The notes under the pieces were generated by a model, which made no database searches, had not been told where the DNA came from, and saw only the letters and a list, made by a program, of their open reading frames with translations. Made by a program: the position numbers and the translations under genes. This document shows positions 25,195 to 56,269 of a DNA stretch of 64,000 nucleotides, piece after piece. Every line of letters begins with the position of its first letter. Position 1 is the stretch's first letter. Source of the DNA: Nymphaea colorata (lineage: Eukaryota > Streptophyta > Magnoliopsida > Nymphaeales > Nymphaeaceae); assembly GCF_008831285.2 (NCBI RefSeq), contig NC_045146.1:18717149-18781148 (forward strand), in the 5' to 3' direction.

Positions 25195-25599
25195 TCATCC
25201 TCCGGTAGCGGCCTTCAGTTCCTCCAGCTTGGGAATGGTTACCTTCAGCACACCATTCTCCAGGTGCGCCTTCACAGCATCTAAGTTCGGATCGAAGGGC
25301 AGCCGGAACTGCCGCCAGAACTTGCCGTCGGGCCTCCCCGCCCGGTGCCACTTGTCCCCCCTCTGCCTCCCTCTCCTCATCCCCTTTCCTCTTGCCGCTC
25401 ATCCTCAGTACCCTTCCCTCCTCCACCTCAATCTTTATGTCCTCCTTCTTCACCCCTGCAATTCCCATACCCAAACATATCTCTCCTTCAACACTACTTT
25501 TCTATTCTTCCATTTCTTGGAGAAAAAATCATTCATCCCAATTTCAGAAGACCAAAATAAGAAGAAAAACACACATAGGGAGAGAGAGAGAGAGAGAGC

Positions 25600-26072
25600 T
25601 GTTGGGATTTGTCCCCATAACGCATATACAAAACCAAATGTATATATCCTAAACAGGATTATGCTCATGCTAAATCATTGAATTAAACAAAACCTTAAAT
25701 TTAATCGGAAGCGTACTTGAATCCATCTGATCTGGGACACGGGAAGATCGCAGCAGAGTCTTCCAGAGTACGTGCGGCACGCTTGAGGTCTCTCAGATGG
25801 GAAAGAGAAAAACCCTAGAAACCAATGTTTCAGGCAACTATTGCACGACCCCAGGAACCACTACCATTTTATAATAAAGGACAATTACAGATTCCACCCA
25901 TCAAAGAGTCCGTAAATCTATACCGGTATCTATACATTTTAAAATTACCCCATACCATCTAAAATGAGGTAATATCCCAAAATGCAATCACTTAAGCGGA
26001 TATTCACGTTAAGACAGCCATAATGTCTGAAATTCCTCATAGACATATGCCGGCCCACCAAATGATCTTACA
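25600..26072 (-). repeat. copia-1 3' LTR
   Basis: 473 bp, TGTTGGGATTT...ATCTTACA on the + strand. It is preceded (in element direction) by the purine-rich tract GGCCCAAGTGGGAGAT at 26088-26073, the likely plus-strand primer. It is about 95 % identical to the other LTR. Confidence 0.93.
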
Positions 26073-26539
26073 ATCTCCCACTTGGGCCAAATATGTCTTT
26101 ATATATTCAGACATTACACAAAACCTTAGGAGCTCATAATTGATATCTTATTAAACGTCATTTCACCAATCTCGTACATAATCATATCAACACAGAACAA
26201 AAGCGGCTTTCGCTATATCAAAATTAGCTAAACCTTCAATGATCACAAATGTTAACATAATCAATGACATAGATCTGATATGGATGTATAGCATGGGAAT
26301 TACATGTAATGTGATTTTTTACAACAACATGTATATTCTCAACTGGTCCAACTTTAAAATGTTATGGAGATCAAAACACAAACACATAAAATACAGAATG
26401 GAACTAAAGAACTTTAAACTTTATTCTGCAGAAAACTGAATATGTGTTCATACATTAGAGCAAACAAAATAAAAACTCCCAATAAACCAGCACATCATCT
26501 AAGGATAACACCTCCATAGGAACAACATGTTCGTGAAAG

Positions 26540-26900
26540 ACCTTATGTGTTAAACCCTTGGCAAGCGAATCCGCAAATCATAGAGTTTGTCCCAATATGC
26601 TCTAAGGACACCTGACCATTCTGTATCCCCTCTTTAACAGCCCAAAAAAACTTAATGTCGATGTGCTTCGAATTTGACAAATTGTGGCTGTTGTAAGAAT
26701 ACATGACTGCTGAATTATTGTCACACAACAACCTTAGTGGTCTTTCTATACCATACATAATGCGCAGCCTCGTGACAAAATTTTGCAATCACAAAACCTG
26801 ATTGGATGCCATTATCTTGGCACCCAGCAAAGTCAGAATCTGAATGCCCAATGATCTCCCACTGGTCTGACTTTTTGTATGTGAACATAAAACCCTTTTG
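26540..26900 (-). pseudogene. copia-1 RNase H remnant
   Basis: Fragments in shifting frames: SDSDFAGC near 26840-26820, then RPLRLLCDNNSAVMYSYN and SNSKHIDIKFFWAVKEGI. The family signatures (L-x-C-D-N-x-S-A and K-H-I-D-I-x-x-H/F) identify copia RNase H. Stops and frameshifts break it. 26089-26540 is non-coding 3' sequence of the element. Confidence 0.8.
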
Positions 26901-26956
26901 TTCTTTGTAAGTACTTCATTACCCTTTTGGCTGCTTTCTAATGATCCATACCAGGA

Positions 26957-27433
26957 TCACTTAAGTATCTGCCTAACACTCCAATGATAAATGCAATCCG
27001 GATGAGTACAAACCTGAGCATACATAAGCCTTCCCACAACAAACGAATATGGAATCCTTTCCATTTCCTTATATTCGATTTCACTTTTAGGGCACTGTTT
27101 GAGATAAAACTTCTCTCCTTTAGCAATTGTAGTATCTCCTGGTTTACAATCCTTTATGCCATATCGCTGAAGTACCTTATCAATGTAGGCCTTTTGTGAT
27201 AATCCGAGAATACCCCGAGAACGATCTCGAAATATTTGGATCCCCAAAACAAAAGATGCACAACCAAGATCCTTCATGTCAAACTTTGTTGACAAAAAAT
27301 TTTTAGTTTCATGCAATATGCCTACATCATTACTTGCCAGCAATATAACATTGACATATAAAAACCAAAAGATAAATTTACCCACTGAACTTTTGGTATA
27401 CATATTCATCAACCATATTAGCCTCGAAACCAA
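26957..27433 (-). pseudogene. copia-1 reverse transcriptase, C-terminal half
   Basis: A 158-codon frame reads FWFLYVNVILLASNDVGILH, KFDMKDLGCASFVLGIQIFR and LSQKAYIDKVLQRYGIKDCK, the copia RT palm and connection. The catalytic Tyr-Val-Asp-Asp has become Tyr-Val-Asn-Val, removing both metal-binding Asp residues. The N-terminal RT half is missing to the right. Confidence 0.88.
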
Positions 27434-27839
27434 ATGAAACTATAATTTAATGAAATTTGTAATACCATTGACTGGAAAGCTTGCTTTAGTCAATATATAG
27501 ATTTTCTTAGTGACATCTCTACTTAATTTTCTTGAGGTTGTTGAGTTTGTTCTTCAATATGGAGATCGACATCATTGCCTTCTTATGAATATGTTGATGG
27601 AACAATGTCAGGAATGAATACTTGACTATTGCTTACAACATCTGTATGAGTGGACTCAGGTCCCTCTTCAAAGGCAATGTGTTTAACCTAATCACCTCCC
27701 CCAAACTCAATATCCTCAAAGAAATGGGCATTTCCCTTTTCAAACAAAGACTTACTGAATGAATTATAAAATTTATAACCTCTTAATGTTTGTTCATTCT
27801 CTCTTTATACATACAATGCAAACATTAAAGTCTACAAAA

Positions 27840-28376
27840 TCAAAGGGACTCAAGAATTCTATTCGACATAAGCCTTTTATTCTCTTTTGAGATTTGTCCT
27901 AAGCGCCAATGCCATAACATAGCAGAATTATCTTTGGCTAATTTTCTTTTAGTACCACTAAACGTAACATGCACGGTTTCATTATATGAAGCAACCGTAT
28001 CAAGCAAATAGAGGTTATTGCTACCAGACAAAGAACCAGTGATAATCAAATTTGAATGCAGAACCAACTTAAATTTATTTCCTCCAAATGAACAATAATA
28101 ACCAAATTTGTCCAGTAAAGAAATAAAAAACAAATTCCGTCTAAAAGACGGTACTACATAAGTTTCTGTCAAATTCAAAAAACAACCAGTCTTTAACAAT
28201 AACCTAAAAAATCTGCTATGGCTTCAATCTTTACCTTCATGTCATCGCCCTCATAGATGAATCTTTCAGCATCAATTGGCGTCTAACAATTTAGGTAGCC
28301 CTGCACAGAAACACTTATGTGAGTAGTAGCAACTGAATCTACCCACAAGTGCCTTGGTACTGAAATTAAATTAACC
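27840..28376 (-). pseudogene. copia-1 protease remnant and GAG-pre-integrase domain
   Basis: Near 28350-28310 the minus strand reads HLWVDSVATTHIS, a retropepsin active site (normally Asp-Ser-Gly) with Gly replaced by Val. After stops, 28199-27840 is open for 119 codons (SFRRNLFFISLLDKFGYYCS ... LWHWRLGQISKENKRLMSN), the GAG-pre-integrase region. Between 27840 and 27433 only the linker after integrase (GYKFYNSFSKSLFEKGNAHF) is recognisable, so the integrase catalytic core is deleted. Confidence 0.82.
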
Positions 28377-29234
28377 TCAGAACAAACCCAAAGTAAGAAT
28401 CGTACCTTTCTTTTCACGCAATGCGTGATACTTAGTACAATCCTTCTTCATATGACCTTCATCCTTGCAAAAGAAGCAGTTTGATTTGCCTTCCTTATGC
28501 TTCTTTTGTTTCTTGATGGATGCGTGATCAACTGCAACTTCCTTAATAGCATTTCTTTTCTTACTTTTAAGCGTAGTAGCCAAGTGAGCACTTTCTATCA
28601 TATCATGCTTCAATCTCTCATCTTCTTCTACACAATGCGAAATGATCTCATTAAGAGTCCATTTCTCCTTCTGACAGTTATAACTAACTTTAAACTGTCC
28701 AAACTGTGGTGGAAGAGAAAGAAAGACCATATGCACTATAAAGTCTTCAGGTAACCTCAGACCTAGTGCCTGTAATTTTGAAGCAAGATGAGACATTTCC
28801 ATAATATGCTCTCGTATGTTCCCCTTACCTTTATACTTCAGCGTCACAAGTTTGCTCAAAAGAGTGCTTGTTTCAGCCTTTTCATTTTTAGCAAAACGTT
28901 TTTCAATCTCTTCAAGGAACGCCTTGGCACTAGCCTTTTCAGTAACAGTGCCCCGAAAATTTTCTGGGATTGATCTCTTCATGATCATTAGACACATGCG
29001 GTTTGAGCGTTCCCACCGTTCAAAGTACCGCTTATCCTCATGGGAACTTTGATCTGTTGGATGAGGTGGGCACAACTCCCTAAATGCAAGGTCAAGATCC
29101 ATACAACCCAGAACAATCATGACAGTTTCTTTCAAGTCCTTAAAATTTGAACTATTTAACTCAGGAACAGTACTCAAATTTGCAGATATCATGGAAGCAG
29201 AACTCACTGTACAAAGAACAACAAAAAATATCAA
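28377..29234 (-). CDS. copia-1 gag (capsid and zinc knuckle)
   Basis: The open frame is 285 codons, with the likely true start at the internal Met of MISANLSTVPELNSSNFKDL (residue 15). ERWERSNRMCLMIMKRSIPE and FEEIEKRF-like segments match the UBN2-type copia gag. A zinc knuckle CFFCKDEGHMKKDC (C-x2-C-x4-H-x4-C) lies near the C-terminus. Gag forms the virus-like particle and packages element RNA. This is the only long intact frame of the element; protease and polymerase frames are broken. Confidence 0.88.
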   Translation of the reverse strand: MIFFVVLCTVSSASMISANLSTVPELNSSNFKDLKETVMIVLGCMDLDLAFRELCPPHPTDQSSHEDKRYFERWERSNRMCLMIMKRSIPENFRGTVTEKASAKAFLEEIEKRFAKNEKAETSTLLSKLVTLKYKGKGNIREHIMEMSHLASKLQALGLRLPEDFIVHMVFLSLPPQFGQFKVSYNCQKEKWTLNEIISHCVEEDERLKHDMIESAHLATTLKSKKRNAIKEVAVDHASIKKQKKHKEGKSNCFFCKDEGHMKKDCTKYHALREKKGTILTLGLF

Positions 29235-29819
29235 ACATGCTCACAATCAATACATATACAAAGATGCAATAACAAATATAAATGAATTTAAATATAATGG
29301 CCTAAATCCCATCACAAGGTACCGGTGCAACATTAATATCCTATCTTTGGATTGAAATACTAACTGCAAGTGATATTCTTGGTCAATAATGAATATAGAT
29401 AATTAACCCTGTCAAACAACGAGCCTATCTTTGGATTGACTCGCTATTAACATGGAAACCTGAAAAATTATCACATATTCATTGCCCTGTATACTTAAAC
29501 CTGACCAAACAACAATCCTCATTTGGGCTGATCATTGTCCGCATGGATCAAGTATACTATCATCTAATGTTTAAAACAAACAAATTCGTACAACAGAGGT
29601 CACTTTGGCGATATAAAATACAAACTTACTCATTTGAAACAACAGACATGACCAAAGATCAAATTCACATTCCAAACATTCATTTAAAGTACACACACAA
29701 ATTAACAACATGCAAAACATAATGCATAAACCAAATTCTCATACAAGTATGCCCTACATTAAATTCAAAACCAAAATGATTCAATGAAATGGACCCAAAA
29801 GAGTCCAAAATTTATAAAC

Positions 29820-30965
29820 CGGTACCATAATCGTGCTTAAGAGGGTCAAGAACTACTGAATCGGCCTTAAAATGGCCCGTATCGTTCTTAAACCACAATT
29901 AGAACACCCACATGCCTCTACATAGGACTGAACCAGTCTAAAAATTGGAGGTACCGACCAAAAAATACACCGTATCGGTTCTAAAACCCACTGAACCGGT
30001 TAAAAAAATGGCAAAAACAGGTTTAAAAACTGAATGAACCGGTCTGCAAGCCCTGAATCAGTTAAAAAACTGAATGAACCGGTCCCAAAATAGTCCAAAT
30101 CGGGTTTAAAAGGTCTGAACCGGTTCTAAAACTGAATGAACCGGTCCACCAAATGTCCGAATCGGTCTCCAAAGGTATGAACCGGTTCCAAAAGGGTCCG
30201 AACCGATCTAAAAACAACTGAATCGGTCTGAAACCAAACAAACCGGTTTGACTCTTTTCAGAACCGGTTTGACAAGGATGAACCGTCTCTCAAAAGTTAA
30301 ACCGCATGGATACGGGTCGGGTTCTGTCTCCAAAAACTGAACACAGCGCGCGGGCGAGCGGGCGCGCGGCAAAATGATTTTTTATTTATTTAACTTTATG
30401 GATCCGAGTCGGGTCAGGACTGACCCGACCCGGGTCCGACCCGCCTCCCGCTCGACCGACGCCGCTGCTCACCCGAAACCGCTGCTCGCCTCTGATCAGT
30501 CACCGAATTGACGGCAAACGGCGAAATTGCCTCCGGCGGGCCACCGGGGGCCTTGGGTGGGCGCCGGTGGGTGTCACGACGCCGTCCGGTGAAAGAGAGC
30601 TCGATGGCATGGCCGGAGGTGGGCGAAAGCCTTTCTACTGCCCCTGTTGCAGTTCTTTCAGAAATCGAAAAGGGAAATCGGAAGGGACGGAGGCGGGTGG
30701 GCGCCGTGCCGCCAGAACTGCTGGCCCCGGCCGTTGCCCCTCTCTGCCGTCGCCTCCCCTTTTGTGTCTTCTTCTTGTTTCGTGGCTGCGACAGAAGCCC
30801 GACGGCTTCTGTCGCCCACAACCGAGGTTCAACAGCCGGTGGGTCACACCGCCCCTTCTGGCGACAGCGACCTCGCCGGCCGTTTCCCCTCCCTTTGTCC
30901 GTTGCTTCGGTTGCGACGGAAGCCGACGGCTTCCATCGCCTACGCGATGGAGGCCGTCGCCCCCT
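29820..30965 (-). other. copia-1 leader: AACCGGT-repeat zone and GC-rich structured zone
   Basis: The primer site is 1.8 kb from gag. 29820-30300 has about 20 spaced AACCGGT/GAATCGGT words, most 20-40 bp apart and linked by TCTAAAA-like spacers. 30330-30965 is very GC-rich and folds on itself (for example GGAAGCCGACGGCTTCC at 30920-30936 and GAAGCCCGACGGCTTCTGTC near 30796). Long open frames exist on both strands (30414-31025 minus, 30508-31077 plus), but this is expected from the GC bias and they match nothing I know. It could be a packaging or promoter region, or captured host DNA. Confidence 0.5.
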
Positions 30966-31070
30966 GTCCAGTTTTTTTTTTTTTTTTGAAAACCAAAAAT
31001 TGCAGTCGAAGAAAAGGAACATCAAAATGAAAAGAACGCCAAAAGATCAACGATTCAACAACGAGCATAG

Positions 31071-31082
31071 GCTCTGATACCA
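31071..31082 (-). promoter_or_regulatory. copia-1 primer-binding site (initiator Met tRNA)
   Basis: The minus strand reads TGGTATCAGAGC two bases inside the 5' LTR, complementary to the 3' end of plant initiator Met-tRNA. It fixes the element's orientation. Confidence 0.92.
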
Positions 31083-31084
31083 AA

Positions 31085-31558
31085 TGTTGGGATTTCACCC
31101 AATAACGCATATACAAAACCAAACGTATATATCCTAAACAGGATCATGCTCATGCTAAATCAATGAATTAAACAAAACCTTAAACTTAAGCGGAAGCGTA
31201 CCTGAATCCATCTGATCTGGTGCACGGGAAGATCGCAGCAGAGTCTTCCAGAGTACGTGCGGCGCGCTTGAGGTCTCTCTCAGATGAGGAAGAGGAAAAC
31301 CCTAGAAACCAATGTTTCAGGTAACCATTGCACGACCCCAGGAACCACTACCATTTTATAATAAAGGACAATTACAGTTCCACCCATCAAAGAGTCCGTA
31401 ATTCTATACCGGTATCTATACATTTTAAAATTACCCCATATCATCTAAAATGACGTAATATCCCAAAATACAATCACTTAAGCGGATATTCACGTTAAGA
31501 CAACCATAATGTCTAAAATTCCTCATAGACATATGCCGGCCCACCAAATGATCTTACA
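31085..31558 (-). repeat. copia-1 5' LTR
   Basis: 474 bp; the partner of 25600-26072. Differences include substitutions, a 2-bp indel near 31280 and a 1-bp indel, and many are transitions. It adjoins the mutated target duplicate AAAGT (31559-31563). Confidence 0.93.
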
Positions 31559-32819
31559 AAAGTACCACTCTCCTGTTCTTCCATTCTTTGGAGTTCGAAT
31601 AAAGGACATCAATTGCTAAACAACTGAAGAACTATGACCGATGAAAGTTTAAAAGGCTATAAGAAGAAGAAGAAGAAGAAGCTACGTACCAGAGATGTCT
31701 AGGCTGATGAAATGGGCAAGAGAGGTTTCCTTCCAATCGACGGGGGCAAGGGTCACGGGCGTATCCAGAGACTTGGGAAGCGTAAAGGGGGATTGCTCCA
31801 GGATCCTGAAGGGATCCACCGCTTCCGGAGGACCCATCATGTCCCATAGCCTACTATAGGGCAGCATGCCCCTCACCGACTCCGGCAAGAATGCCACCCC
31901 ACAAACAACGATGCCATTACCAACAAGACAGATGTCCTCATCTTCTTCCCTTCCTCCACGTCACGACCCACCCTCTGCCTTCTGCTGGGAAGCAATGAGA
32001 AGCGCTTAAGACAGAGAGAGCACGACACTGATGCCTCTCCGAAAGCTCAATTCAGGGAGGGAGATGCCGATGGAGATGGAGATGGAGATGGTGGGGTTTT
32101 ATCTCTCTAGACTCGTCCAGTTGATCTCTGTTTCCTTAGCCTCTCTAACACAAAAACCAGACACCTTTTTAAAGAAGAACGTAGAAGGAAGGAGATCGAT
32201 CTAGAGCTTCAAGCGGATCGATGGGCAAGAGTCCGCACATTTCTCCCCACGACTCTGTTCTCGGAGCAACAGCCAGACTCTATACAGTCGGGACCTCGTA
32301 CAAAGTGATCTGGATATCAAATTTTGGGTCCCTTTCAAGATCCCATAGTTATAGAAAAACTTTTTTTTTTTACGTTGAAAAGACTTGTTAAAACTGTTTT
32401 AAGGGTAAAAGGAAAGTCTTTAAAATTGCATCTACAACTTTGTGCCCTGGCCACAATAAAAAAAAAAGATTACCAAAAACGTAGTTAAATTTCTTATTTT
32501 TAATTTAAAAGTTCAGGTGACCGGGACCCCGGACCCCTTTGGGGAACTTTTATGTAACAAACTAAGCGGTAAAAGTAAGTTTTTGCTCCTAAAACAATAA
32601 ACAGGTTGAATAGTTTAAATTTCTCATGAGAAAAAAAGATTGTCCTATCATTGTCTCTTTTTTCTTGTCTGTCTAACTAATGGACATATAATGATTGATG
32701 AAGCCAACATTGCTAACTAAAGTTGAAGTACTGAAAAAAATAAAATGGTAAGTCGGAAGGAACCCATATATGGAGAAAATGGTACTCTGGCCGGATGCAC
32801 AATGTGTAGAGTTACTCGA

Positions 32820-33400: not shown

Positions 33401-33720
33401 TCTTACACTCTATGAATCCCAGTAAGTATTGTTGTTCAAGTAAGGTACTGTTGTTGGTGTGGTCGGTTCTTTCTCTTTTATTTCTTTAAAGGAGGTTTGC
33501 GCTCTAAGCATTTCTGTTCTTTTTTTCCTTTTTTAAACAAAGTTACAAAGCTTGGCTAAACCCAGGCGTTTAGCTCTTAGCTCGAGCTAATTAGCTGAAA
33601 TGAGCTTGAGCTCTCTTAGATTGACTTAGATTAGTTCGCCTCTGGGTGAGTCATTCCAGACTTAAGTTCGAGCAGGCCCAGCTAGGTCCAAAATTGGTTT
33701 GTGAATATAGGACCCTGCAA

Positions 33721-34164: not shown

Positions 34165-35661
34165 CCCCGCAATCAATACCATACATTCTCTCCAAAATCT
34201 ATATTATTGCTCTATGGGCGTGTTGATGCTGTGTAAGCACTGAGGCCCGACTCTACCTCGGCAAATACCTTCTGGCAGCAGTTCGTTCCTATACTTTATT
34301 AGTTTGCCTTTATATTCAACATTTCGTTTCTTTTTTTTTCCCATTTCCCATTCAAACAAAATAAGAGATTGATTCGAGCAAATTAGTAAATGACGCTGTC
34401 ATTATTAGCTGAGCATTTTTTAGACAATCAATTTTAAGACCATATAAAATTTGATTTTATATACGAAAACAAGTTTCTAGGCTGTCTTACGTTTCCCAAA
34501 AGAAGATCAGATACATGATGAATAGTTATCCAGCAAAAGCAAGAACCTTTTTTATTTACTCTTATGCACCAAAGTAGTTCCATTACACGAAACATTCTGC
34601 ATCATATACACTACGACCGAACTAAGGACGAACAAAACGGTAGATGGGACTCTTAGGAGGCCGCAGCAGAGCAACTTCTGCTAACGGTTTCATTTCAGCT
34701 CGTTCTTGGAGGTGCTGATGTCGCCGGCAGACCGATTTTCCACTATGTCGATGACCTTAGGCTGTCTACCCTTCCCTTCCGCCAGGTTGGGGATGGTTAC
34801 CTTCAAACACCATTATCCAGGTGCACCTTGACGGCATCCAAGTTCTTATTGTAGGGCAGCCCGAACTGCCGCCAGAACTTGCAGATGGGCCTCTCCCCCC
34901 AGTGCCACTTGTCGCCTTCTGCCTCCTTCTCCTCCTCCCCTTTCCTCTCCCCGCTGATCCTCAGTACCCTTCCCTCCTCTACCTCGATCTTTATGTCCTC
35001 CTTCTTCACCCCTTCCATTCCATTCCCGAACATATCTCTCCTTTAGCACTACTATTGGAGAAATCATTCTTGCCAATTCAAAAAACCAAGAGAACGAGAG
35101 AGATAGAGCTGATGAGAAGTCCACGTTTCAACAACTCGAATCCACGTTTCAGCATCACGGAAACAAATTTGTCAATAATTTCTTACCTTGTTAGTATTTG
35201 CTTTTGTTGCTATATTTTTGTCTCCTAGCCGTTGAGGGGAAACACCTTCCTTCTTGGTCTTCCTCCAGCGCTACATATACTCAATGTAATCTGTAAAGAA
35301 AAATGATGAGAAAATAGAGCAAGGTTGCGTGATGCTCTTATCATTGATGTAGGATTGAGAAATCTAAACCACGTAAATATGTGTTCATTGTCTTCTTTCT
35401 AATCTCTGTAAAGTTATCATGGTATCATAGCAATGATCTCGGGAGACCCCGGCGTGATAAGGTGCCGAGGGAGGAGCCGACATTTTACAAGTACCGCAGT
35501 TGCTGTCGTAGAAGATAAACCTGCGGAAGGATCGCTAGACAAGGCATTCTAGGCGTGACTTTCTCTGGGTCACGTTTTTTACTGGAAGCGTTTTTTAGAT
35601 TTTTTGGACAATCCTGTGAAGAGATACAAAATTTAGAAGTGCCGCAAGTTTCTGAAGTTCA

Positions 35662-36201
35662 ATGAACGCCAACGAAAGAACAAGTGATTCTCAAAGACTG
35701 AACTCTACTAGTGGATCTGCAACACAACAACATATTGTCGTGGAGACAGGTACCACCATTCTCAAAATTACAAATATTTCATTGAATGGCTTAAATTATA
35801 TGTCATGGTCCAAAGCTGCTACTTTGTTCTTAAGAGGGAAATGTAAACTTGGGTTTGTTAATGGAACAAAATCTAAACCTACCATTGACGACCCGAACTA
35901 TGATGAGTGGGAGTTCGGTAATCATATAGACATGTCTTGGTTATTGAATTCTATGGATGCTAAAATTGCTGAGAGTTTTTATTATTTCAAAACTGCCGAA
36001 GCAATATGGAATGCTGCCAAAGAGTTATATAGTGAAAAATATAGTACGGCGCACATGTATCAACTCTCCCATGAGATTTATGAGTTGAAGAAAGGTCATA
36101 TGACCTTGGGCGACCATATTGCTACGTTTAAAGGGAAGTGGAATGAGATGGACACTCATTGCCCGCTTTCAACTGACCTTGCTCGCAATAAGAGGCAGTG
36201 A
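35662..36201 (+). CDS. copia-2a gag fragment
   Basis: 179 codons: TTILKITNISLNGLNYMSWS, GDPNYDEWE-like and SFYYFKTAEAIWNAAKELYS segments typical of copia gag (DUF4219/UBN2 type). A stop (TGA) at 36199-36201 ends it well before any zinc knuckle; the continuation is broken by further stops. Nearly identical to the gag of copia-2b. Confidence 0.82.
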   Translation: MNANERTSDSQRLNSTSGSATQQHIVVETGTTILKITNISLNGLNYMSWSKAATLFLRGKCKLGFVNGTKSKPTIDDPNYDEWEFGNHIDMSWLLNSMDAKIAESFYYFKTAEAIWNAAKELYSEKYSTAHMYQLSHEIYELKKGHMTLGDHIATFKGKWNEMDTHCPLSTDLARNKRQ

Positions 36202-36659
36202 GGTCAAGAAAGAACCTTCAAACTATTGGCTGGTTTAGGTGAAGATTAAGATCAAGCAAGAAGCCAAATATTAATGACATATAATCTGTTGTCTTTGGAT
36301 ATGGTGTGTAACACCCTCTTACGAGAAGCAAAAAGAAGGAAGATTATGAACACTAGTGACACTATTAATACTAAAACTAGTAGTGATAACATTGAAAAAG
36401 TTGCATTCAATGCCTCGGTCAGCAAAAAACCTGAAGAAAAAATGGAGGTTCAGCCGTCGTTCAGAAATAGAGGCAAACGATTGGTTTAATCCGACGAAGG
36501 TGATGTTACTCTTTCTACTATTGCAAAGATTATTAAAAATTTGAATGGCCAAAAAGACACCAACACGGCAACTGCTGAAGTCACCGAGCCTAGAAGATCA
36601 CAAGGAACCATTCAACCTCCAAGGCACTTGAAAGATATGTGACATATAAGACAATTATG

Positions 36660-37790
36660 CATTCTATCGAAAAATCAATGTGATGTTTAAATTTTTTTCC
36701 GAAAAACACTACGCCTTTTTGGCTACCATAAAAAGAGAATTAGAACAAAGATCTTATGAGGAGGCCAAAGATAATCCTCTTTGGATCAAAGCTATGCATG
36801 AAGAGCTTGATGCCTTAAACAAAAATCAAACATGGGAGATTACTCAATTGCCTGAAGGAAAACATGCAGTTCTCTGCAGATGAGTTTTTAAAATCAAATA
36901 CAACAGTGATAGAACAGTGAAAAGATACAAGGCCAGGCTGGTCGCAAAAGGGTATACTCAAACACAAAGATTGGATTATGAGGAAACATTTGGCCCGGTA
37001 GCCAAGATGAATACAGTTTGAATATTTCTCTCGATTGCTTGCAATTATGATTGGTCACTATTTCAATTAGATGTAAAAAATGTCTTTCTACAGGGAGACT
37101 TACAAGAATAAGTATATATGAAACTACATATTGGATGGACTCAAGAAAAGTCTACATCAGTCTGCAGGCTGCGAAAACGATATATGGACTTAAACAATCT
37201 CCTCGAGCACAACACTTTAAACTGAGCATAGCTCTTGAACAGTATGGATTCTATAGGAGTAAAGTTGAACGGATTCTCAAATATTTGAAATAGTCTCCTG
37301 GTCAAGGATTGTTATATAAACGAAATGGCCATGTGAACATTAGAGCATATTCTGATGCAGATTGGGGAGGAAGCATGGATCAAAAATCCACTACTGGTTA
37401 TTGTATTTATGTAGGCGATAACCTAGTATCTTGGCAAAGTATGAAACAATGAGCCACTTCTAGGTCCAGTGCAGAAGCAGAATACAGGGCGATTGCCACC
37501 ACAACTAGTGAAATTACTTGGATTCATACTCAATGGGCTTAGAATTGAGTTCTCCAACACCAATGCATTGTGACAATCTAGCTGCTATTCATATTGCAGC
37601 AAATGCCATGTTCCATGAAAGGACAAAACATATAGAAATTGACTGTCACTTCATACAAGAAAAAGTTCAGAACGGCGAAATCAATACTCCCTTCACATCA
37701 AGTTGAAAACAACTTGCAGATGGATTAACCAAAGCAATATCAAGAAAAGAGTTGAATGAAGCCATTAACAAGTGGGGCTGCCATGACTTG
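36660..37790 (+). pseudogene. copia-2a reverse transcriptase and RNase H remnants
   Basis: Fragments: [54 protein letters not shown] (RT fingers and palm), GLKQSPRAQHFKLS, then DADWGGSMDQKSTTGYCIYV and [20 protein letters not shown] (RNase H), [14 protein letters not shown] and [18 protein letters not shown]. The Tyr-Val-Asp-Asp block is missing by deletion between 37270 and 37285. Several stops are one transition away from the expected Trp or Arg codon (for example TGA at 36881). Confidence 0.85.
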
Positions 37791-38529
37791 TACGCCCCAC
37801 TTGAGGGGGTGATGAGAAGTCGACGTTTCAGCATCACACATACAAATTTGTCAATAATTTCTTATCTTTTTAGTATTTGCTTTTGTTGCTATATTTTTCT
37901 CTTATAGCCATTTGTATAGCCATCGAGGCGGAAACACCTTCCTTCTTGGCCTTCCTCCAAAGTCTTCCTCCAGCGCTATGTATACTCAATGTAATCTCTA
38001 AAGAAAAATGATGAGAAAATAGAGCAAGGCTGCGTGATGCTCATATCGTGGATGTAGGATTGACAAATCTGAACCACGTAAATCTATGTTCATTGTCTTC
38101 TTTCTATTTTCTCAAAAGTTATCAAGAGCACCAATCTCCTACTCTTCCATTTTTTGGAGTTCAAATGAGGGACACCAATTGCAAAACAACAAAAGAACAA
38201 GGACCAACGAAAAAATAAATGGTGAAAAGAAGAAGAAGAAGATATGTACCAAGGACATCGAGGGTGATGAGATGGGCATGAGAGGTCTCCTTCCAATCGG
38301 TGCTGGCAAGGGTCAAGGTCGTATCCAGAGACTTGGGAATTGCAATAGGGGAATGCTCGAGGATCTTGAAGGGATCCACGGCTTCTTGAGGAATCATCAT
38401 GTCCCACAGCCTACTGTAGGGAAGCAGGGTGCTCGCCGTCTGCGGCAGGAATGCCACCCCCACCACCAATGACGCGATTAACAACACCAAGAAAGATGCC
38501 CTCTTCATCTGCCCTTAACGAGACCTTAG

Positions 38530-43190: not shown

Positions 43191-43193
43191 GAT

Positions 43194-43287: not shown

Positions 43288-43584
43288 TAGCTTGGGAGAT
43301 ATGTGACAAAATAACTCCCTCTCCTTCTTAAGCGAATGCAACATTCATGTATTTCCTTCTTCGTGGGCGGGACAGCATTGTGACTTGTCATCCCAACTTT
43401 GGCAAAAGTGCATGCAAAGCCTGAAACATGATGGAGTGGTAAAGAGCTGGCTGTAGCAGAAGTTCTTCGGAAATCTTCCTATGGCCCTGTGCTTGCTATG
43501 AAAAGCACTCGTAGAAGTACCCAAAAAATCGGGAGGACTTCTCTGGCTTCATCACAATAATGTCATTCTCTTGTAATTTATCCA

Positions 43585-43875
43585 TCAAGTGGCGTGTACC
43601 GGCGGAATCAGTTGCCACATAACTGCTCCCTCCAAGTACAATGGTGGGTGGCCGCTGGTCTCCAAAACTATAGCAAAACTATATACGTCAACCTTGTTAT
43701 TATAGTGCTTCTTATCCCCAAGACGAAGTGTGACAGCGCTATAAAGCTGCGAAGGGGAAGCCAGAGAAAATAACCGAACCCATGGTGCACAATGAAAGAG
43801 AGTAAAAAACCTTAAGAAGACCAATGGTACTTCCGGAGCCATCCATCGATATGTGCCAGTTTCTGCAGTCGTCAT
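43585..43875 (-). pseudogene. Raf-like protein kinase fragment, left arm of palindrome
   Basis: TAETGTYRWMAPE, then an intron-like stretch (GAG|GTACC...TTCGCAG), then LYSAVTLRLGDKKHYNNKVD and VYSFAIVLE. These are kinase subdomains VIII-IX (APE motif and the Asp of the DVYSF helix) of the plant Raf-like/ATN1-type Ser/Thr kinases. The expected continuation (W-E-L-L-T-N) is replaced by ETSGHPPLYLEGAVMWQLIP, so this is a fragment fused to other DNA. No ATP-binding or catalytic-loop exons are present. The intron is kept, which argues against a retrocopy. Confidence 0.85.
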
Positions 43876-44007
43876 TTCGGTCAGGTGCTATTGGGTATCA
43901 CCTGCTCTCCAAAGGAGTGAGTTTCTGCAGTCATCATTTCGGTCAGGTGCTATTGGGTATCACCTGGTCTCCAAAGGAGTAAGGACACCCAGTAGCACCT
44001 GACCGAA

Positions 44008-44298
44008 ATGATGACTGCAGAAACTGGCACATATCGATGGATGGCTCCCGAGGTACCATTGGTCTTGTTAAGGTTTTTTAGTCTCTTTCGTTGTGCACCA
44101 TGGGTTCGCTTAGTTTCTCTAGCTTCCCCTTCGCAGCTTTATAGCACGGACACACTTCGTCGAGGGGATAAGAAGCACTATAATAACAAGGTTGATGTAT
44201 ATGGTTTTGCTATAGTTTTGGAGACCAGCCGCCACCCACCATTGTACTTGGAGGGAGCAGTTATGTGGCAACTGATTCCCTCGGTACACGGCACTTGA
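44008..44298 (+). pseudogene. Raf-like protein kinase fragment, right arm of palindrome
   Basis: The inverse copy of the fragment at 43585-43875, with the same content (TAETGTYRWMAPE, intron, GDKKHYNNKVDVYGFAIVLE) and a few substitutions. The conserved Ser of DVYSF is Gly here. Together with the left arm it could form a long double-stranded RNA. Confidence 0.85.
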
Positions 44299-46041
44299 TG
44301 GATAAATTACAAGAGAATGACATTACTGTGATGAAGCCAGAGAAGTCCTCCCGATTTTTTGGGTACTTCTACGAGTGCTTTTCATAGCAAGCACAGGGCC
44401 TTAGGAAGATTTCCGAAGAACTTCTGCTACGGCCGGTTCTTTGCCCGGATGAACACATTGAACAGCCAAAAGAAAAGAAAAAAAAAACAAGTCCACTTTG
44501 AACTGGGGAGAAACCAGCCGCCAGGTGATACACAACAAGCTCCAGAGAAACCAAAGAATCCTGCAATGTACAGAGACAGAAGTCCGGGAAAAAAAAGTTA
44601 AATTTGACAATTAAATAAGCTTGGTTAAGTTATATGAGTGCAGTCGTTATGTTCAGTTTACCACTCTATCATGTTTCAGGCTTTCAATCCGCTTTTGCCA
44701 AAGTTGTGATGACAAGCCACAATGCTGTCCTGCCCATACACGAAGAAGGAAGTTCAAGAAAGTTGCATTCTCTTAACAAGGAGGAACCCTATATTTACTA
44801 GGAACCCACTCTCTGCTGGGTGAATAGCTTGGGGGTTTCATTTTTGCAATGGAGCCCCTCTCTTTGATGTCAATCTCCATCTCTCTCTTCTATTCGAAAG
44901 AAAGAAATGGTTGCTAGAAGAAGTCTAAGGTTTCTTTTTTTCCTCTTCAATTAGGGTGAGGACATTGGACTCCCTCAGCCCTGGTATTTATAGTCTTATG
45001 CCATTATGACTAAATTAATAAGTGGAGATGCCATTGACGTTTTTATCATTTGCTTGCCAATTCGCACGTTAGATTTAGATGAAAATAACAAATATGGATG
45101 TGCTTTAGACCATAGTCATAAAAATTGTGTGTGCGTGTGTGTGTTAATTTTAAATATGCATAAAACACAAAAACAAGTCTGTTATTTTAAACTTTAAAAC
45201 ACCACCTTTTTTGGAAAAAAGTCAAAATAAAAAAGATGTGTTTTAAGTGGGTTTTCATCTACTTTAATGACAAATTGCTTGTTTCCAATTTTTTTTATTT
45301 TATTTGTTGCTTATTCGTTTAGTTTTTTGATGTTGGGATTATTAGTTTCTTGCATTTTTAAATTTTCCCTAATTTTTCCTAATTTTTATGTTGTGAAATA
45401 GCTTCTGATTTTTGTGCATTTTTTTTTAAGAAGTCAATTTTTATCCAAGATAACTTTCCTGAGACAGCATCTAAATCCCAGTAGGGACACTCACTAGACG
45501 TCGGTGGCCCTACATGAGTCTCTTTCTCTCTCTTTCTCCCTCTCTCTCTCTCTTGGCCATTGTCCACTGATATTTTTTGTGTACAGTGGCTGCGTGAGAT
45601 CAATCTCTTTCTTCTCTTACTTTGTTATTTTTTCCTCCACACTGCTAACAGGGAACCTTTTGAATGCTTTTCCCACTCTTAAGGGCTAGCGGATGGTACC
45701 TTTCCTAGATTTTCTTTTCGTTTGGAATTTCTAGGTTCTCCTCAGCATCGAGTTCATGTTTAGTGTATCTTCTTTTCACCATTTGGAATTTAGTCTTTAC
45801 ATTTTGTTCGGGTGGAGATGATGATGGTTTTGCCTTGTTTCATTGAGATAAATTCCGAATATTTCTTTTACATTCTTACTATGATTGAGGTTGTTTTTCC
45901 ACATAAACTTAAAAAGGCCCAAAATTTGTTAGATAACTCCCTGTTTTATCTAATATATTCACCAATATGCAATTTTTTCTTACAATTATGATTCGGAAAG
46001 TGACAACCAAATTTTAAATTACAGCAATAAGATGGACCTAC

Positions 46042-47367: not shown

Positions 47368-48146
47368 TCATCCTCCGGTAGCGGCCTTCAGCTCCGCCAG
47401 CTTGGGAATGGTTACCTTCAGAACACCATTCTCCAGGTGCGCCTTCACAGCATCTAAGTTCGGATCGAAGGGCAGCCGGAACTGCCGCCAGAACTTGCCG
47501 TCGGGCCTCCCCGCCCGGTGCCACTTGTCCCCCCTCTGCCTCCCTCTCCTCATCCCCTTTCCTCTTGCCGCTGATCCTCAGTACCCTTCCCTCCTCCACC
47601 TCAATCTTTATGTCCTCCTTCTTCACCTCTGCAATTCCCATACCCAAACATATCTCTCCTTCAGCACTACCTTTCTATTCTTCCATTTCTTGGAGAAAAA
47701 ATCATTCATCCCAATTTCAGAAGACCAAAATAAGAAGAAAAACACACATAGGGAGAGAGAGAGAGACAGAGCACCACTCTCCTGTTCTTCCATTCTTTGG
47801 AGTTCGAATAAAGGACATCAATTGCTAAACAACTGAAGAACCACGACTGATGAAAGATTAAAAGGCTATAAGAAGAAGAAGAAGAAGCTACGTACCCGGG
47901 ATGTCTAGGCTGATGAAATGGGCAAGAGGGGTTTCCTTCCAATCGACGGGGGAAGGGTCACGGGCGTATCCAGAGACCTGGGAAGCGTAAAGGGGGATTG
48001 CTCCAGGATCCTGAAGGGATCCACCGCTTCCGGAGGATCCATCATGTCCCATAGCCCACTATAGGGCAGCATGCCCCTCGCCGACTCCGGCAGGAACGCC
48101 ACCCCACAAACAACGACGCCATTACCAACAAGACAGATGTCCTCAT
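47368..48146 (-). pseudogene. sHSP copy E, uninterrupted intron but frame-broken
   Basis: Exon 1 is 48146-47896 and exon 2 is 47628-47368, minus strand; the 267-bp intron has an intact AGAGCACC, the empty site of copia-1. As in copy B, a G run one base short (48102-48105) breaks the signal peptide after MRTSVLLVMASLFVG. A G run one base long (47529-47534) shifts the frame before [20 protein letters not shown]. The end is [11 protein letters not shown], without I-x-I or an ER tail. The residue after the splice is Glu (DIPE) instead of the conserved Gly of DVPG. A TATA-like GATAAAAC lies upstream near 48335. It could be transcribed but cannot give an ER-targeted sHSP. Confidence 0.88.
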
Positions 48147-49620: not shown

Positions 49621-49958
49621 AAGAAGTAAGAATAAATGGTCTTACACTCTATGAATCCCAGTAAGTATTGTTGTTCAAGTAAGGTACTGTTGTTGGTGTG
49701 GACGGTTCTTTCTCTTTTATTTCTTTAAAGGAGGTTTGCGCTCTAAGCATTTATGTTCTTTTTTTCTTTTTTTTAAACAAAGTTACAAAGCTTGGCTAAA
49801 CCCAGGTGTTGAGCTCTTAGCTCGAGCTAATTAGCTGAATGAGCTCGAGCTCTCTTAGATTGACTTAGATTAGTTCGCCTATGGTCAGTCTTTCCAGACT
49901 TAAGTTCGAGCAGGCCCAGATAGGTCCAAAATTGGTTTGTGAATATAAGACCCTGCAA

Positions 49959-50402
49959 ATAAGGATGCGAATGGACTGGATTTGAATCCGACATTTGATT
50001 GAACTGCTTCAAAAAAGTGAGATGTGGGAAAAATATTAATATCCAATGGATCTATTAAAAAAAGACATTTGATTGGATTCAGATTCAATAATTACAAATA
50101 AATATCTGATCGAATAATAGACATGAAGTCAACCAATTAAATTTTCTTATATCAGATACCTTTGCATTTTTAAAGTCTGTTCAGAACATGTTATTATACC
50201 ATTCAAATTCAGTTGTGAATTTAAAAGTTGAATGTAGATTTCAGTTATGAATTTGAAAGTTGGATTCAGATATATATGACAAACTTTTTTTTATCTGCCA
50301 TTCGAATCTAGATTCGAACCCAAATATTTGAATATCCAATTACATGAATTCAATATGATAAAAAGGAATATCCAATCTGAATCCAATTCATTGCCATCCT
50401 AA
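49959..50402. mobile_element. degenerate hAT-like MITE, unit 2 copy
   Basis: Copy of 33721-34164, flanked by CCCTGCAA (49951-49958) and CCCTGCAC (50403-50410). It shares the insertion point with unit 1, so it predates the tandem duplication. Confidence 0.7.
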
Positions 50403-51351
50403 CCCTGCACTCAATACCATACATTCTCTCAAAAATCTATATTATTGCTCTCTGGGCGTGTTGATGCTGTGTAAGCACTGAGGCCCGACTCTACCTCGGC
50501 AAATACCTTCTGGCAGCAGTTCGTTCCTTTACTTTATTAGCTTGCCTTTATATTCATCATTTCGTTTCTTTTTTTTCCCATTTCCCATACAAACAAAATA
50601 AGAGATTGATTCGAGCAAATTAGTAAATGACGCTGTCATTATTAGCTGAGCATTTTTTAGACAATCAATTTTAAAACCATATAAAATTTGATTTTATATA
50701 CGAAAACAAGTTTCTAGGCTGTCTTACGTTTCCCAAAAGAAGATCAGATACATGATGAATAGTTATCCAGCAAAACCAAGAACCTTTTTTATTTACTCTT
50801 ATGCACCAAAGTAGTTCCATTACACTACACGAAACATTCTGCATCATATACACTACGACCGAACTAAGGACGAACAGAACGGTAGATGGGACACTTAGGA
50901 GGCCGCAGCAGAGCAACTTCTGCTAACGGTTTCATTTCAGCTCATTCTTGGAGGTGCTGATGTCGCCGGCAGACCGATTTTCCACTATGTCGATGACCTT
51001 AGGCTGTCTACCCTTCCCTTCTGCCAGCTTGGGGATGGTTACCTTCAAACACCATTATCCAGGTGCACCTTGACGGCATCCAAGTTCTTATTGTAGGGCA
51101 GCCCGAACTGCCGCCAGAACTCGCAGATGGGCCTCTCCCCCCAGTGCCACTTGTCGCCTTCTGCCTCCTTCTCCTCCTCTCCTTTCCTCTCCCCGCTCAT
51201 CCTCAGTACCCTTCCCTCCTCTACCTCAATCTTTATGCCCTCCTTCTTCACCCCTTCCATTCCATTCCCAAACATATATCTCCTTTAGCACTACTATTGG
51301 AGAAATCATTCATGCCAATTCAAAAAACCAAGAGAACGAGAGAGATAGAGC

Positions 51352-51661
51352 TGATGAGAAGTCCACGTTTCAACAACACGAATCCACGTTTCAGCATCAC
51401 GGAAACAAATTTGTCAATAATTTCTTACCTTGTTAGTATTTGCTTTTGTTACTATATTTTTGTCTTATAGCCGTTGAGGGGAAACACCTTCCTTCTTGGT
51501 CTTCCTCCAGCGCTATATATACTCAATGTAATCTGTAAAGAAAGATGATGAGAAAATAGAGCAAGGTTGCGTGATGCTCTTATCGTTGATGTAGGATTGA
51601 CAAATCTAAACCACATAAATCTGTGTTCATTGTCTTTTTTCTAATCTCTCAAAAGTTATCA
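51352..51661 (+). repeat. copia-2b 5' LTR
   Basis: 310 bp, TGATGAGAAG...GTTATCA, preceded by AGAGC and followed at once by the primer site. The equivalent in unit 1 is 35110-35419. Confidence 0.92.
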
Positions 51662-51673
51662 TGGTATCAGAGC
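51662..51673 (+). promoter_or_regulatory. copia-2b primer-binding site
   Basis: TGGTATCAGAGC, a perfect initiator-Met-tRNA primer site. The unit-1 copy has T in place of G at position 9. 51674-51961 is the element leader. Confidence 0.93.
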
Positions 51674-51961
51674 AATGATCTCGGGAGACCCCGTGTGATA
51701 AGGTGCCGAGGGAGGAGCCGACATTTTACAAGTACCGCAGTTGCTGTCCTCGCAGATAACCCTGCGCAAGGCTCGCCAGACAAGGCATTCTAGGCGTGAC
51801 TTTCTCTGGGTCACGTTTTTTACTGGAGGCGATTTAGAGATCGAGCAAGGTGGCGTTGGATTCAGAAACGTGTCTAGTATTTTTAATCCAATTTTTATAT
51901 TTTTTGGACAATCCTGTGAAGAGATACAAAATTTACAAGTGTCGCAAGTTTCTGAAGTTCA

Positions 51962-52501
51962 ATGGACGCCAACGAAGGAACCAGTGATTCTCAAAGACTG
52001 AACTCTACTTGTGGATCTTCAACACAACAACATATTGTTGTGGAGACAGGTACCACCATTCTCAAAATTACAAATGTTTCATTGAATGGCTTAAATTATA
52101 TGTCATGGTCCAAAGCTACTACTTTGTTCTTAATTGGGAAATGTAAACTTGGGTTTGTTAATGGAACAAAATCTAAACCTACCATTGGTGACCCTAACTA
52201 TGATGAGTGGGAGTTCGGTAATCATATGGACATGTCTTGGTTATTGAATTCTATGGATGCTAAAATTGCTGAGAGTTTTTATTATTTCAAAACTGCCGAA
52301 GCAATATGGAATGCTGCCAAAGAGTTATATTGTGAAAAATATAGTACGGTGCACATGTATCAACTCTCCCATGAGATTTATGAGTTGAAGAAAGGTCATA
52401 TGACCTTGAGCGACCATATTGCTACGTTTCAAGGGAAGTGGAATGAGATGGACACTCATTGCCCGCTTTCAACTGACCTTGCTCACAATAAGAGGCAGTG
52501 A
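51962..52501 (+). CDS. copia-2b gag fragment
   Basis: 179 codons from MDANEGTSDSQ to a TGA at 52499-52501: TTILKITNVSLNGLNYMSWS, EWEFGNHMDMSWLLNSMDAK and SFYYFKTAEAIWNAAKELYC. This is copia gag of the UBN2/DUF4219 type. The stop lies at the same place as in copia-2a, so it predates the tandem duplication. The downstream gag part (52574-52850) is in fragments and I see no intact zinc knuckle. Confidence 0.82.
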   Translation: MDANEGTSDSQRLNSTCGSSTQQHIVVETGTTILKITNVSLNGLNYMSWSKATTLFLIGKCKLGFVNGTKSKPTIGDPNYDEWEFGNHMDMSWLLNSMDAKIAESFYYFKTAEAIWNAAKELYCEKYSTVHMYQLSHEIYELKKGHMTLSDHIATFQGKWNEMDTHCPLSTDLAHNKRQ

Positions 52502-52828
52502 GATCAAGAAAGAACCTTCAAACTATTGGCTGGTTTAGGTGAAGATTAAGATAAAACAAGAAGACAAATATTAATGACATATAATCTGTCGTCTTGGGAT
52601 ATGGTGTGTAACACCCTCTTACGAGAAGCAAAAAGAAGGAAGATTATGAACACTAGTGACACTATTAATACTAAAACTAGTAGTGATAACATTGAAAAAG
52701 TCGCATTCAATGCCTCGGTCAGCAAAAAACATGAAGAAAAAATGGTGGTTCGGATGTCGTTCAGAAATAGAGGCAAACGATTGCTTTAATCCGACGAAGG
52801 TGATGTTACTCTTGCTACTATTGCAAAG

Positions 52829-53900
52829 ATGATTAAAAATTTGAATGGCCAAAAAGACACCAACACGGCAACTGCTGCATCAGCGTTCACTTCACCCAGA
52901 AATCAACCAAGTATGAACTCAGATCCCTCTCTTACTAGAAATTACTCTTGGATCATGGATTCAGGTGCATCTGAACATATGTCTTGTTTTCACAATAACT
53001 TGAAAGATATAAAAAATAAAAGTGAAAATAGAACGTGACTATAGCTGATGGCACCTACATTAAAGTTGTTGGAGTTGGGAAAACATGTTTTTTTGAAAAA
53101 GAATTAAAGACTATTTATATGCCTAATCTGGCATCTAATCTACTCTCTGTTTCTAAGATTACACTTAATCTAAATTGCAATGTTATCTTTTCTCCTACCA
53201 ATGTGATGTTTTAGGATAGGTTGATGAATATGACTATTGGTGAAGGAAAAGAAGAGAATGGAGTGTATGTGATTGATCAAAATAATAATGTTGCTATGAC
53301 TGCTAGCTCAGGATTTGATTCTCACTTATGGCATTGCAGACCTGGCCACCCGTCCAGTAGAATTTCGTCGTTAATTTTTCCTCAAGAAACTTTTGATTTA
53401 CGTGTGTGTGAAATTTGTCAATATGCTAAAATGACTCGTCCTCCTTTTGTTTTGTCCAAAATTGTTGCTAGTGAACTATTTGAATTGGTGCATGCTGATG
53501 TTTGGCGTCCTGCCCCAGTAACATCATATAATAGTTTAAAATATTAATTATCATTTATTGATGATTTCTCTAAGGTAACCTGGTTATATCTTCTCAATTC
53601 CAAGGATCAAGTTATTGAAAAATTTGTGATTTACTACAATATGGTGCGAACTCAATACAATGTTGGTATTAAGACCCTAAGAACCGACAATGGGATTTAG
53701 TTTAAAAGCAGTTTTTTTTGAAAATTTTGAGAATATGAGCGACTTGATGCATCAATATTCATGTGTAAAAACTCCGCAACAAAACGGAGAAGACGAGAGG
53801 AAAAATTGTCATATTCTTGAAATTACAGGTTCCTTACTTTTTTAGTCTTATATGCCTAAATAGTTTTGGAGAGAGACGATTATGACTGCTTGATACCTAA
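52829..53900 (+). pseudogene. copia-2b protease and integrase, broken
   Basis: SWIMDSGASEHMSC holds the protease Asp-Ser-Gly (52958-52966), intact here. SHLWHCRPGHPSSR...CEICQYAKMTRPPF is the integrase HHCC zinc finger with His, His, Cys, Cys present. The core shows HADVW (first Asp), LRTDNG (second Asp) and QQNGEDERKN (Glu), so the D-D-E triad is visible. Stops at about 53545 and 53698 and a frameshift near 53710 inactivate it. All of this is deleted in copia-2a. Confidence 0.87.
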
Positions 53901-55568
53901 TTAACTGAACTCCTAGCTGCATATTAAGAGGAAAATCACCTCTTCACATCCTTACAGGACGCAAGATTAGTATCAATCACTTGAAATTGTTCGGAAGCAT
54001 TGTATATGTTTTGATCGACAAAAATGTACGAGACAAACAAAGTCCTAAAGCTCGCAAGTGTGAATTTATGAGATATTCAGTCAACAAAAAAGGGTATAGA
54101 TGCAACAATCCTTATGACCAGCGCATGTATATTTTTAGAGATGTCAAATTTGATGAGTCACTGCTATATTTCAAAAATCACCATCATCAAGAAAGACGAT
54201 AGGGGAGACTACTCTGCCAAACATTAGCATTTATGATCATTTAGTTGCCATTTCTACCAACCAAGGTAATCATAATGCATAGAAGAAGCTCAAGTGCAGA
54301 CCTTGATTTTAAAACTTGGGATCTCATGAAGTTGGAAGGGGCACAACTGAAGTCACTGAGCCTAGAAGATCACAAAGAACCATTCAACCTCCTAGGCACT
54401 TGAAAGATATGTGACATATAAGAAAATTATGCATTCTATCGAAAAATCAATGTGACGTTTAAATTTTTTTCTGAAAAACACTACGCCTTTTTGGCTGCCA
54501 CAAAAAGAGAATTAGAACCAAGATCTTATGAGGAGGCCAAAGATAATCCTCTTTGGATCAAAGCTATGCATGAAGAGCTTGATGCCTTAAACAAAAATCA
54601 AACATGGGAGATTACTCAATTGCCTGAAAGAAAACATGCAGTTCAACAGAAAGGGTATACAACAGTGATAGAACAGTGGAAAGATACAAAGCCAGGCTGG
54701 TTGCAAAAGGGTATACTCAAACACAAAGATTGGATTATGAAGAAACATTTGGCCCGATAGCCAAGATGAATACTGTTCGAATATTTCTCTCGATTGCTTG
54801 CAATTATGATTGGTCACTATTTCAATTAGATGTAAAAAATGTCTTTCTACAGGGAGACTTACAAGAAGAAGTATATATGAAACTACATATTGGATGAACT
54901 CAAGAAAAGTCTACATCAGTCTGCAAGCTGCGAAAACGATATATGGACTTAAACAATCTCCTCGAGCACAACACTTCAAATTGAGCAAAGCTCTTGAACA
55001 GTATGGATTCTATAGGAGTAAAGTTGAACGGATTCTCAAATATTTGAAATAGTCTCCTGGTCAAGGATTATTATATAAACGAAATGGCCATGCAAACATT
55101 AGAAAATATTCTCATGCAGATTGGGGAGGAAGCATGGATCAAAAATCCACTACTGGTTATCGTATTTATGTAGGAGATAACCTAGTATCTTGGCAAAGTA
55201 AGAAACAACGAGCCACTTCTAGGTCCAGTGCAGAAGCAGAATACAGGGCGATTGCCACTACAACTAGTGAAATTACTTGGATTCATACTCAATGGGCTTA
55301 GAATTGAGTTCTCCAACACCAATGCATTGTGACAATCAAGCTGCTATTCATATTGCAGCAAATGCCGTGTTCCATGAAAGGACAAAACATATAGAAATTG
55401 ACTGTCACTTCATACAAGAAAAGGTTCAGAACGGCGAAATCAGTACTCCCTTCACATCAAATTCAAAACAACTTGCAGATGGATTAACCAAAGCAATATC
55501 AAGAAAAGAGTTAAATGAAGCCATTAACAAGTGGGGCTGCCATGACTTGTACGCCCCACTTGAGGGGG
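53901..55568 (+). pseudogene. copia-2b RT and RNase H remnants
   Basis: 53981-54202 is the linker after integrase (MKLFGSIVYVLIDKNVRDKQ). RT starts EEAKDNPLWIKAMHEELDAL near 54533, then [20 protein letters not shown] and [40 protein letters not shown] then jumps to VERILKYLK near 55030, omitting the Tyr-Val-Asp-Asp segment. RNase H follows ([58 protein letters not shown]), with the metal-binding ADWG Asp kept. Frameshifts and stops are frequent. Confidence 0.85.
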
Positions 55569-55883
55569 TGATGAGAAGTCGACGTTTCAGCATCACACAT
55601 ACAAATTTGTCAATAATTTCTTATCTTTTTAGTATTTGCTTTTGTTGCTATATTTTTCTCTTATAGCCATTTGTATAGCCATTGAGGCGGAAACACCTTC
55701 CTTCTTGGCCTTCCTCCAAAGTCTTCCTCCAGCGCTATGTATACTCAATGTAATCTCTAAAGAAAAATGATGAGAAAATAGAGCAAGGCTGCGTGATGCT
55801 CATATCGTGGATGTAGGATTGACAAATCTGAACCACGTAAATCTATGTTCATTTTCTTCTTTCTAATTTCTCAAAAGTTATCA
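55569..55883 (+). repeat. copia-2b 3' LTR
   Basis: 315 bp, nearly identical to the unit-1 3' LTR (37810-38124) and more different from its own 5' LTR, as expected if the insertion predates the tandem duplication. Confidence 0.92.
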
Positions 55884-56269
55884 AGAGCACCCAATCTCCT
55901 GCTCTTCCATTTTTTGGAGTTCAAATGAGGGACACTAATTGCAAAACAACAAAAGAACAAGGACCAACAAAAGATTAAATGGTGAAAAGAAGAAGATACG
56001 TACCAAGGACATCGAGGGTGATGAGATGGGCATGAGAGGTCTCCTTCCAATCGGCGCAGGCAAGGGTCAAGGTCGTATCCAGAGACTTGGGAATTGCAAT
56101 AGGGGAATGCTCGAGGATCTTGAAGGGATCCATGGCTTCTTGAGGAATCATCATGTCCCACAGCCTACTGTAGGGAAGCAGGGTGCTCGCCGTCTGTGGC
56201 AGGAATGCCACCCCCACCACCAATGACGCGATTAACAACACCAAGAAAGATGCCCTCTTCATCTGCCCG

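Follow-up and report, generated by a model that had tools for sequence, protein, structure and literature searches.

Rice Tos17 is a copia element. Its target preference is quoted in PMC6911290 as ANGTT-TSD-AACNT, where TSD stands for the target site duplication. In Arabidopsis, Ty1/copia insertion is biased toward H2A.Z-rich, environmentally responsive genes, as outlined in PMC6668482, and new insertions of ONSEN have no common TSD pattern according to PMC8501995, contrary to an earlier report cited there. Retroviral intasomes have a weak-palindrome target preference, as summarized in PMC4422553. Here we describe a locus of Nymphaea colorata where two copia families, referred to as copia-1 and copia-2, occupy the identical intron bond of paralogous small heat-shock protein (sHSP) genes. 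The window, i.e., the whole stretch of DNA analysed, comprises 64,000 nucleotides of contig NC_045146.1 (assembly GCF_008831285.2, positions 18,717,149 to 18,781,148) and holds five sHSP copies, A to E; copies F and G lie beyond it, and others are found on the contig C478. The assembly searched amounts to 407.8 Mb in 783 contigs.

The locus resembles ATCOPIA93 and ONSEN/ATCOPIA78 (PMC6668482 and PMC8501995) in that copia elements are found within stress-related genes; it differs in that their targeting is chromatin-scale. As in the retroviral intasomes of PMC4422553, the preferred bases are symmetric about a short staggered cut, although these intasomes belong to retroviruses, with integrases other than those of copia. 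No report of such a same-bond coincidence was met among the titles and abstract beginnings listed in searches on copia targeting and same-site insertion, which is no proof of absence. In essence this is known biology, cleanly documented, with one family that has a strong Tos17-like G...C preference.

Copia-1 is inserted in copy B and copia-2 in copies C and D, in each case after AGAGC and before ACCA(A/C)TCTCC. In a MAFFT alignment of 12 rows (four empty copies, B left, B right, C, D and four copies from C478) both insertions fall in a single column, so the claim of an initial sequence-only reading that the two families hit the same intron nucleotide is borne out at base level, and the empty sites it had seen in copies A and E are present. 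The target reads GA(C/T/G)[AGAGC]ACC, with G at position -3 and C at position +3, counted outward from the TSD. This bond holds copia-2 in C and D, in four C478 copies and in F, for which the right junction alone is seen, at 69194; G and one C478 copy are empty, with GGAGC replacing AGAGC. The same reading placed both insertions after AGAGC and did not mention the pentamer to the right of the element in B, which is AAAGT; AGAGC flanks the element on either side in C and in D, and on the left in B.

Both elements are Ty1/copia long terminal repeat (LTR) retrotransposons. Copia-2 has paired TG...CA LTRs (TGATGAG...TTATCA), the 5-bp TSD AGAGC at either end in both C and D, and the domain order PF14244 gag, PF13976 at 53215, PF25597 at 53909 and PF07727 (RVT_2) at 54628, i.e., gag, integrase-side domains and RVT_2; a search of seven copia-2 pieces gave no integrase core. 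AGAGC as a trace of the primer-binding site (TGGTATCAGAGC after the copia-2 5' LTR in D's group) was set aside because A and E, which are empty, have these five bases as well. Copia-1 has an LTR pair with TG...CA ends (TGTTGGG...TTACA), and a copia-type gag and RVT_2 are recognized by the Pfam search, where PF14223, PF00098 and PF07727 exceed the cut-off; a gag_pre-integrase match below the cut-off is found at 27843-28223, upstream of RVT_2, and none of the three copia-1 pieces searched had a match to the integrase core. The leader of copia-1 between 5' LTR and gag (30414-31077) is a GC-rich stretch with long open frames on both strands; the GC content is 62% in 30500-30999 and 32-40% in 500-base steps over 25500-29999. 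Elsewhere in the genome (G000:C1:5310385-5321518) three consecutive copia-1 LTR ends are spaced ~5.5-5.6 kb apart with the TSD AAACA at both outer flanks, as in what would be a tandem copia-1 element sharing an LTR.

The two families had been said to differ in LTRs, gag and orientation, and this agrees with what was found. When the window is compared with itself by BLAST at E 1e-10, copia-1 and copia-2 have no match of at least 100 bases in common, the best Pfam gag model differs between their open reading frames (ORFs), and the gag ORFs run in opposite directions, that of copia-1 with the sHSP gene and that of copia-2 against it. The copia-2 gags are also near or at the cut-off of the gag model of copia-1.

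The number of events was read from trees of the gene flanks. In the exon-1-side tree (11 copies) as well as in the exon-2-side tree (10 copies), ((B,E),G) is separated from A and the copia-2-bearing clade, with 98-100% support for these clades; the empty C478 copy was left out and F enters the exon-1-side tree only. Because the sampled copia-2 copies form one clade and B stands beside the empty E and G, we count two events: the trees support a single entry of copia-2 on the stem of the C-type genes, in what would be the ancestor of C, D, F and the four C478 copies, and a single entry of copia-1, in B only. Since both trees agree, it appears that conversion has carried neither element from one clade to the other. 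The independence claimed by the sequence-only reading thus stands for copia-1 relative to copia-2, whereas C and D carry one insertion that was duplicated. The LTRs of copia-2 are more diverged (Kimura two-parameter distance, K2P, 0.112 in C and 0.100 in D vs 0.037 for the C/D right flank) than those of copia-1 (K2P 0.051 vs 0.020-0.029 for the B/E flanks), and for this reason we infer that copia-2 probably preceded copia-1.

The target preference of each family was assessed from its insertions elsewhere in the genome, with chance base frequencies taken from the window. The discovery set for copia-1 derives from 42 matches listed (40 of 583 candidates scored), two of which are B itself. C14:37029 and two short partial matches were left out; eight pairs and 20 single LTRs were read at both ends and locus 94 at one end. 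Dropping loci 68/69, where the LTR start is unclear, and locus 94, which runs into the element, leaves 27 sites (TTACT was accepted as the LTR end at loci 50/51). A further 29 sites serve as validation, chosen among 100 places listed of 275 and on chromosomes C1-C5 only. They include 22 pairs, namely 12 two-sided and 10 read on the right side only (nine with the left end, guessed at a fixed offset, unrecognized and one whose TSD matched at 3/5). Single ends were chosen on C1 and C2; nine of these 16 ran into the element and were dropped. For copia-2 there are 13 sites outside the array, nine of them two-sided, from 40 matches listed, 13 of which lie within the array; matches that were truncated or lay in the interior of the element (L031, L113-L117) were not used. 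Two of the nine two-sided copia-2 sites have imperfect TSDs (3/5 and 4/5).

Copia-1 has G or C at -3 in 51 of 56 other insertions, counting one side per site, vs 38% expected, and on both sides in 19 of 21 two-sided sites, 10 of these as G(-3)/C(+3). When sites are folded about the TSD centre, the 36 bases at position -3 in the discovery set comprise 25 G and 9 C, and the 41 in the validation set 25 G, 12 C and 4 T (G 50, C 21, T 5 and A 1 of 77 altogether). The positions closer to the TSD are occupied by A 34 and T 27 (-2) and by A 25 and T 29 (-1) of 77. Copia-1 therefore resembles Tos17 in its 5-bp TSD, in preferring a palindromic pattern that has G at -3 and C at +3 and in being a plant element, but it has no fixed TT before and AA after the TSD, A and T being about equal at -1 and -2. 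In copia-2, G or C at -3 is found in 1 of 13 sites, and on both sides in none of nine (Fisher p 8e-9 for 51/56 vs 1/13). The suggestion of a local target preference is thus supported, as a preference for sequence, in copia-1 only.

For a pattern picked after being seen, as applies to all bond probabilities given here, the exact bond has a uniform chance of 1/243 in the scored intron stretch of copy E (47646-47888, within the 267-bp intron) and 1/1181 over the aligned gene. G(-3)/C(+3) occurs at 10 of the 243 positions, the sHSP bond among them. A matrix of copia-1 sites ranks this bond 9 to 18 of 243 in E, depending on matrix width, and 11 of 216 in the intron of A; over the 1181 aligned-gene positions it gives the bond 0.004-0.008 vs 0.00085. 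The copia-2 matrix, built on 13 sites only, puts it at rank 234 among the 243 positions of E and at rank 176 among the 216 of A. The sHSP bond suits copia-1 and is atypical for copia-2, and consequently sequence moderately favours the hit of copia-1 but not that of copia-2. The preference of copia-1 makes the coincidence less improbable without explaining it away, and the remaining agreement is best read as a coincidence seen after the fact.

We consider it probable, at roughly 80%, that two independent integrase-mediated insertions took place at the homologous bond, that of copia-1 partly guided by sequence, that of copia-2 random or guided by chromatin, and the rest due to chance. Copia-2 would have entered a C-type gene once this had diverged from copy A; it would have left a 5-bp TSD and been multiplied by tandem duplication, whereas copia-1 would have entered copy B alone. 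In this reading the copia-1 integrase prefers a G three bases ahead of its 5-bp cut and a C three bases behind it, and because the bond has both, the choice of copia-1 is partly explained by sequence. Copia-2 appears to have no such preference, so that its landing looks random or chromatin-guided, and we infer that chance, possibly with chromatin, made up the rest. If chromatin draws Ty1/copia elements to stress genes, either family might be led to heat-shock genes in this way, with no selection of the bond itself. Several observations weigh against this explanation. The TSD of copia-1 in B is unequal (AGAGC/AAAGT, 3/5 identical; p 0.021 for two mismatches in five at the LTR rate), while in 22 other two-sided copia-1 insertions the TSD matches at 5/5 in 19, 4/5 in two and 3/5 in one. 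Copia-1 should postdate the B/E split because E is empty, and its LTR divergence is therefore out of order: the LTR differences (23/472) exceed those of the B/E flanks (117/5211; Fisher p 0.0015). The LTR excess and TSD mismatches suggest that change was quicker around the element, or that the insertion is older and passed through the duplication as a polymorphism. They would be explained by a higher mutation rate in the element, by an insertion still polymorphic when the duplication took place, or by conversion of the flanks. Furthermore, the copia-1 matrix gives the exact bond only 0.018-0.036 within the intron (vs 0.004 if uniform), and the contrast with copia-2 is built on 13 of its sites.

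A true local hot spot is unlikely in our judgement; under it, several copia families would be attracted to the bond by chromatin, by bending of the DNA or by the GA tract of this intron. A (GA)n tract adjoins the site in B, E and G, and purine or pyrimidine runs of at least 10 occur in 7 of 22 copia-2 flanks (from 13 sites) vs 8.1% of random 25-mers of the window, which alone supplied the background; the Arabidopsis bias toward H2A.Z-rich genes mentioned above points the same way. However, copia-1 flanks contain few such runs (10 of 78), H2A.Z targeting would act at nucleosome scale rather than on a single bond, and the independent events known are two only. The GA tract as a draw, proposed by the sequence-only reading, thus reduces to a weak, small-sample hint for copia-2 with little for copia-1, and was not retained. 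The same reading had offered an integrase specificity common to both families. The bond does suit copia-1, but the comparison of -3 bases in 56 copia-1 and 13 copia-2 sites led us to reject this idea, and the low rank of the bond in copia-2's own matrix likewise speaks against it, leaving it hardly any credence. Integration of the copia-2 sHSP copy in trans by a copia-1-type integrase, where the specificity of one enzyme would account for both hits, is very improbable; it is suggested by the G(-3)/C(+3) bond itself, G or C on both sides being favoured by copia-1 and absent from the nine other two-sided copia-2 sites examined, and is based on a single atypical site and the small copia-2 sample. 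Gene conversion or recombination, named at the outset as what could undo the independence of the insertions, might have moved one of them to the other locus, or copia-1 might have replaced copia-2, and the unequal TSD and high LTR divergence in B hint at later exchange. Yet the elements share no DNA match in the self-BLAST and run in opposite directions, the flank trees are without mixing, LTR and interior queries of copia-2 have no match in B, and its sister E is empty. On the trees and the missing match we rejected this origin, to which we assign next to no probability.

The locus provides a natural case of two unrelated retrotransposons at one bond with empty sites preserved nearby, so that independence can be argued from the sequence rather than assumed. 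The genome also supplies two copia families that differ in their -3 bases, a usable pair for asking which part of a plant copia integrase reads the target. That heat-shock introns are special targets lies outside what these data show.

Table 1. Coordinates of sHSP genes, target sites and copia elements in the window
Feature	Position	Strand	Remarks
sHSP copy A	13284..14073	+	HSP20 gene, two exons, empty site; ends from reading frames
Intron of copy A	about 13543-13753	+	interrupted by no element
Empty target AGAGC/ACCAATCTCC in copy A	13647..13661	-	
Intron of sHSP copy B	25456..31689	-	contains copia-1
Left TSD AGAGC of copia-1	25595..25599		
Copia-1 element	25600..31558	-	LTRs 25600-26073 and 31085-31558; gene's own direction
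Copia-1 reverse transcriptase fragment (RVT_2)	26957..27433	-	
Copia-1 gag ORF (Retrotran_gag_2, zf-CCHC)	28377..29234	-	
Right target pentamer AAAGT of copia-1	31559..31563		3/5 bases as in AGAGC
Left TSD AGAGC of copia-2, copy C	35105..35109		
Copia-2 in copy C	35110..38124	+	3015 bp, interior shorter than in D; opposes gene
Right TSD AGAGC of copia-2, copy C	38125..38129		
Intron of sHSP copy E	47629..47895	-	empty, 267 bp
Empty target AGAGC/ACCACTCTCC in copy E	47768..47782	+	
Left TSD AGAGC of copia-2, copy D	51347..51351		
Copia-2 in copy D	51352..55883	+	4532 bp
Right TSD AGAGC of copia-2, copy D	55884..55888		

The sHSP genes are one-intron HSP20 genes in a tandem array, with B, C, D and E on the minus strand and A on the plus strand (Table 1); in copy D one extra C follows the right TSD. 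Copy A matches PF00011, the HSP20 alpha-crystallin domain, with E 6.4e-28 in the Pfam profile search. The protein has an N-terminus that is hydrophobic as judged by eye. These genes may be of class IV, the endoplasmic reticulum (ER) sHSPs. Among the five window copies only A reads as an intact ORF. Frame changes are found in exon 2 of B, C, D and E, including the empty E, and most of the window copies, E among them, look like pseudogenes.

A 100-N assembly gap at 65394-65493 (window coordinates, beyond the window on the same contig) lies within the sHSP array. Contig C478 (59.8 kb) overlaps the chromosome past this gap at 99.3% identity and carries additional units, and the chromosome sequence probably understates the length of the array. 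Given this overlap, and a distance of 0 between them in the exon-1-side tree, F and one of the C478 copies probably represent a single locus. Finally, a long inverted repeat occurs in two copies (43438-44445 and 61263-62270), with 462-nt arms that are 94% complementary and 84 nt between them.

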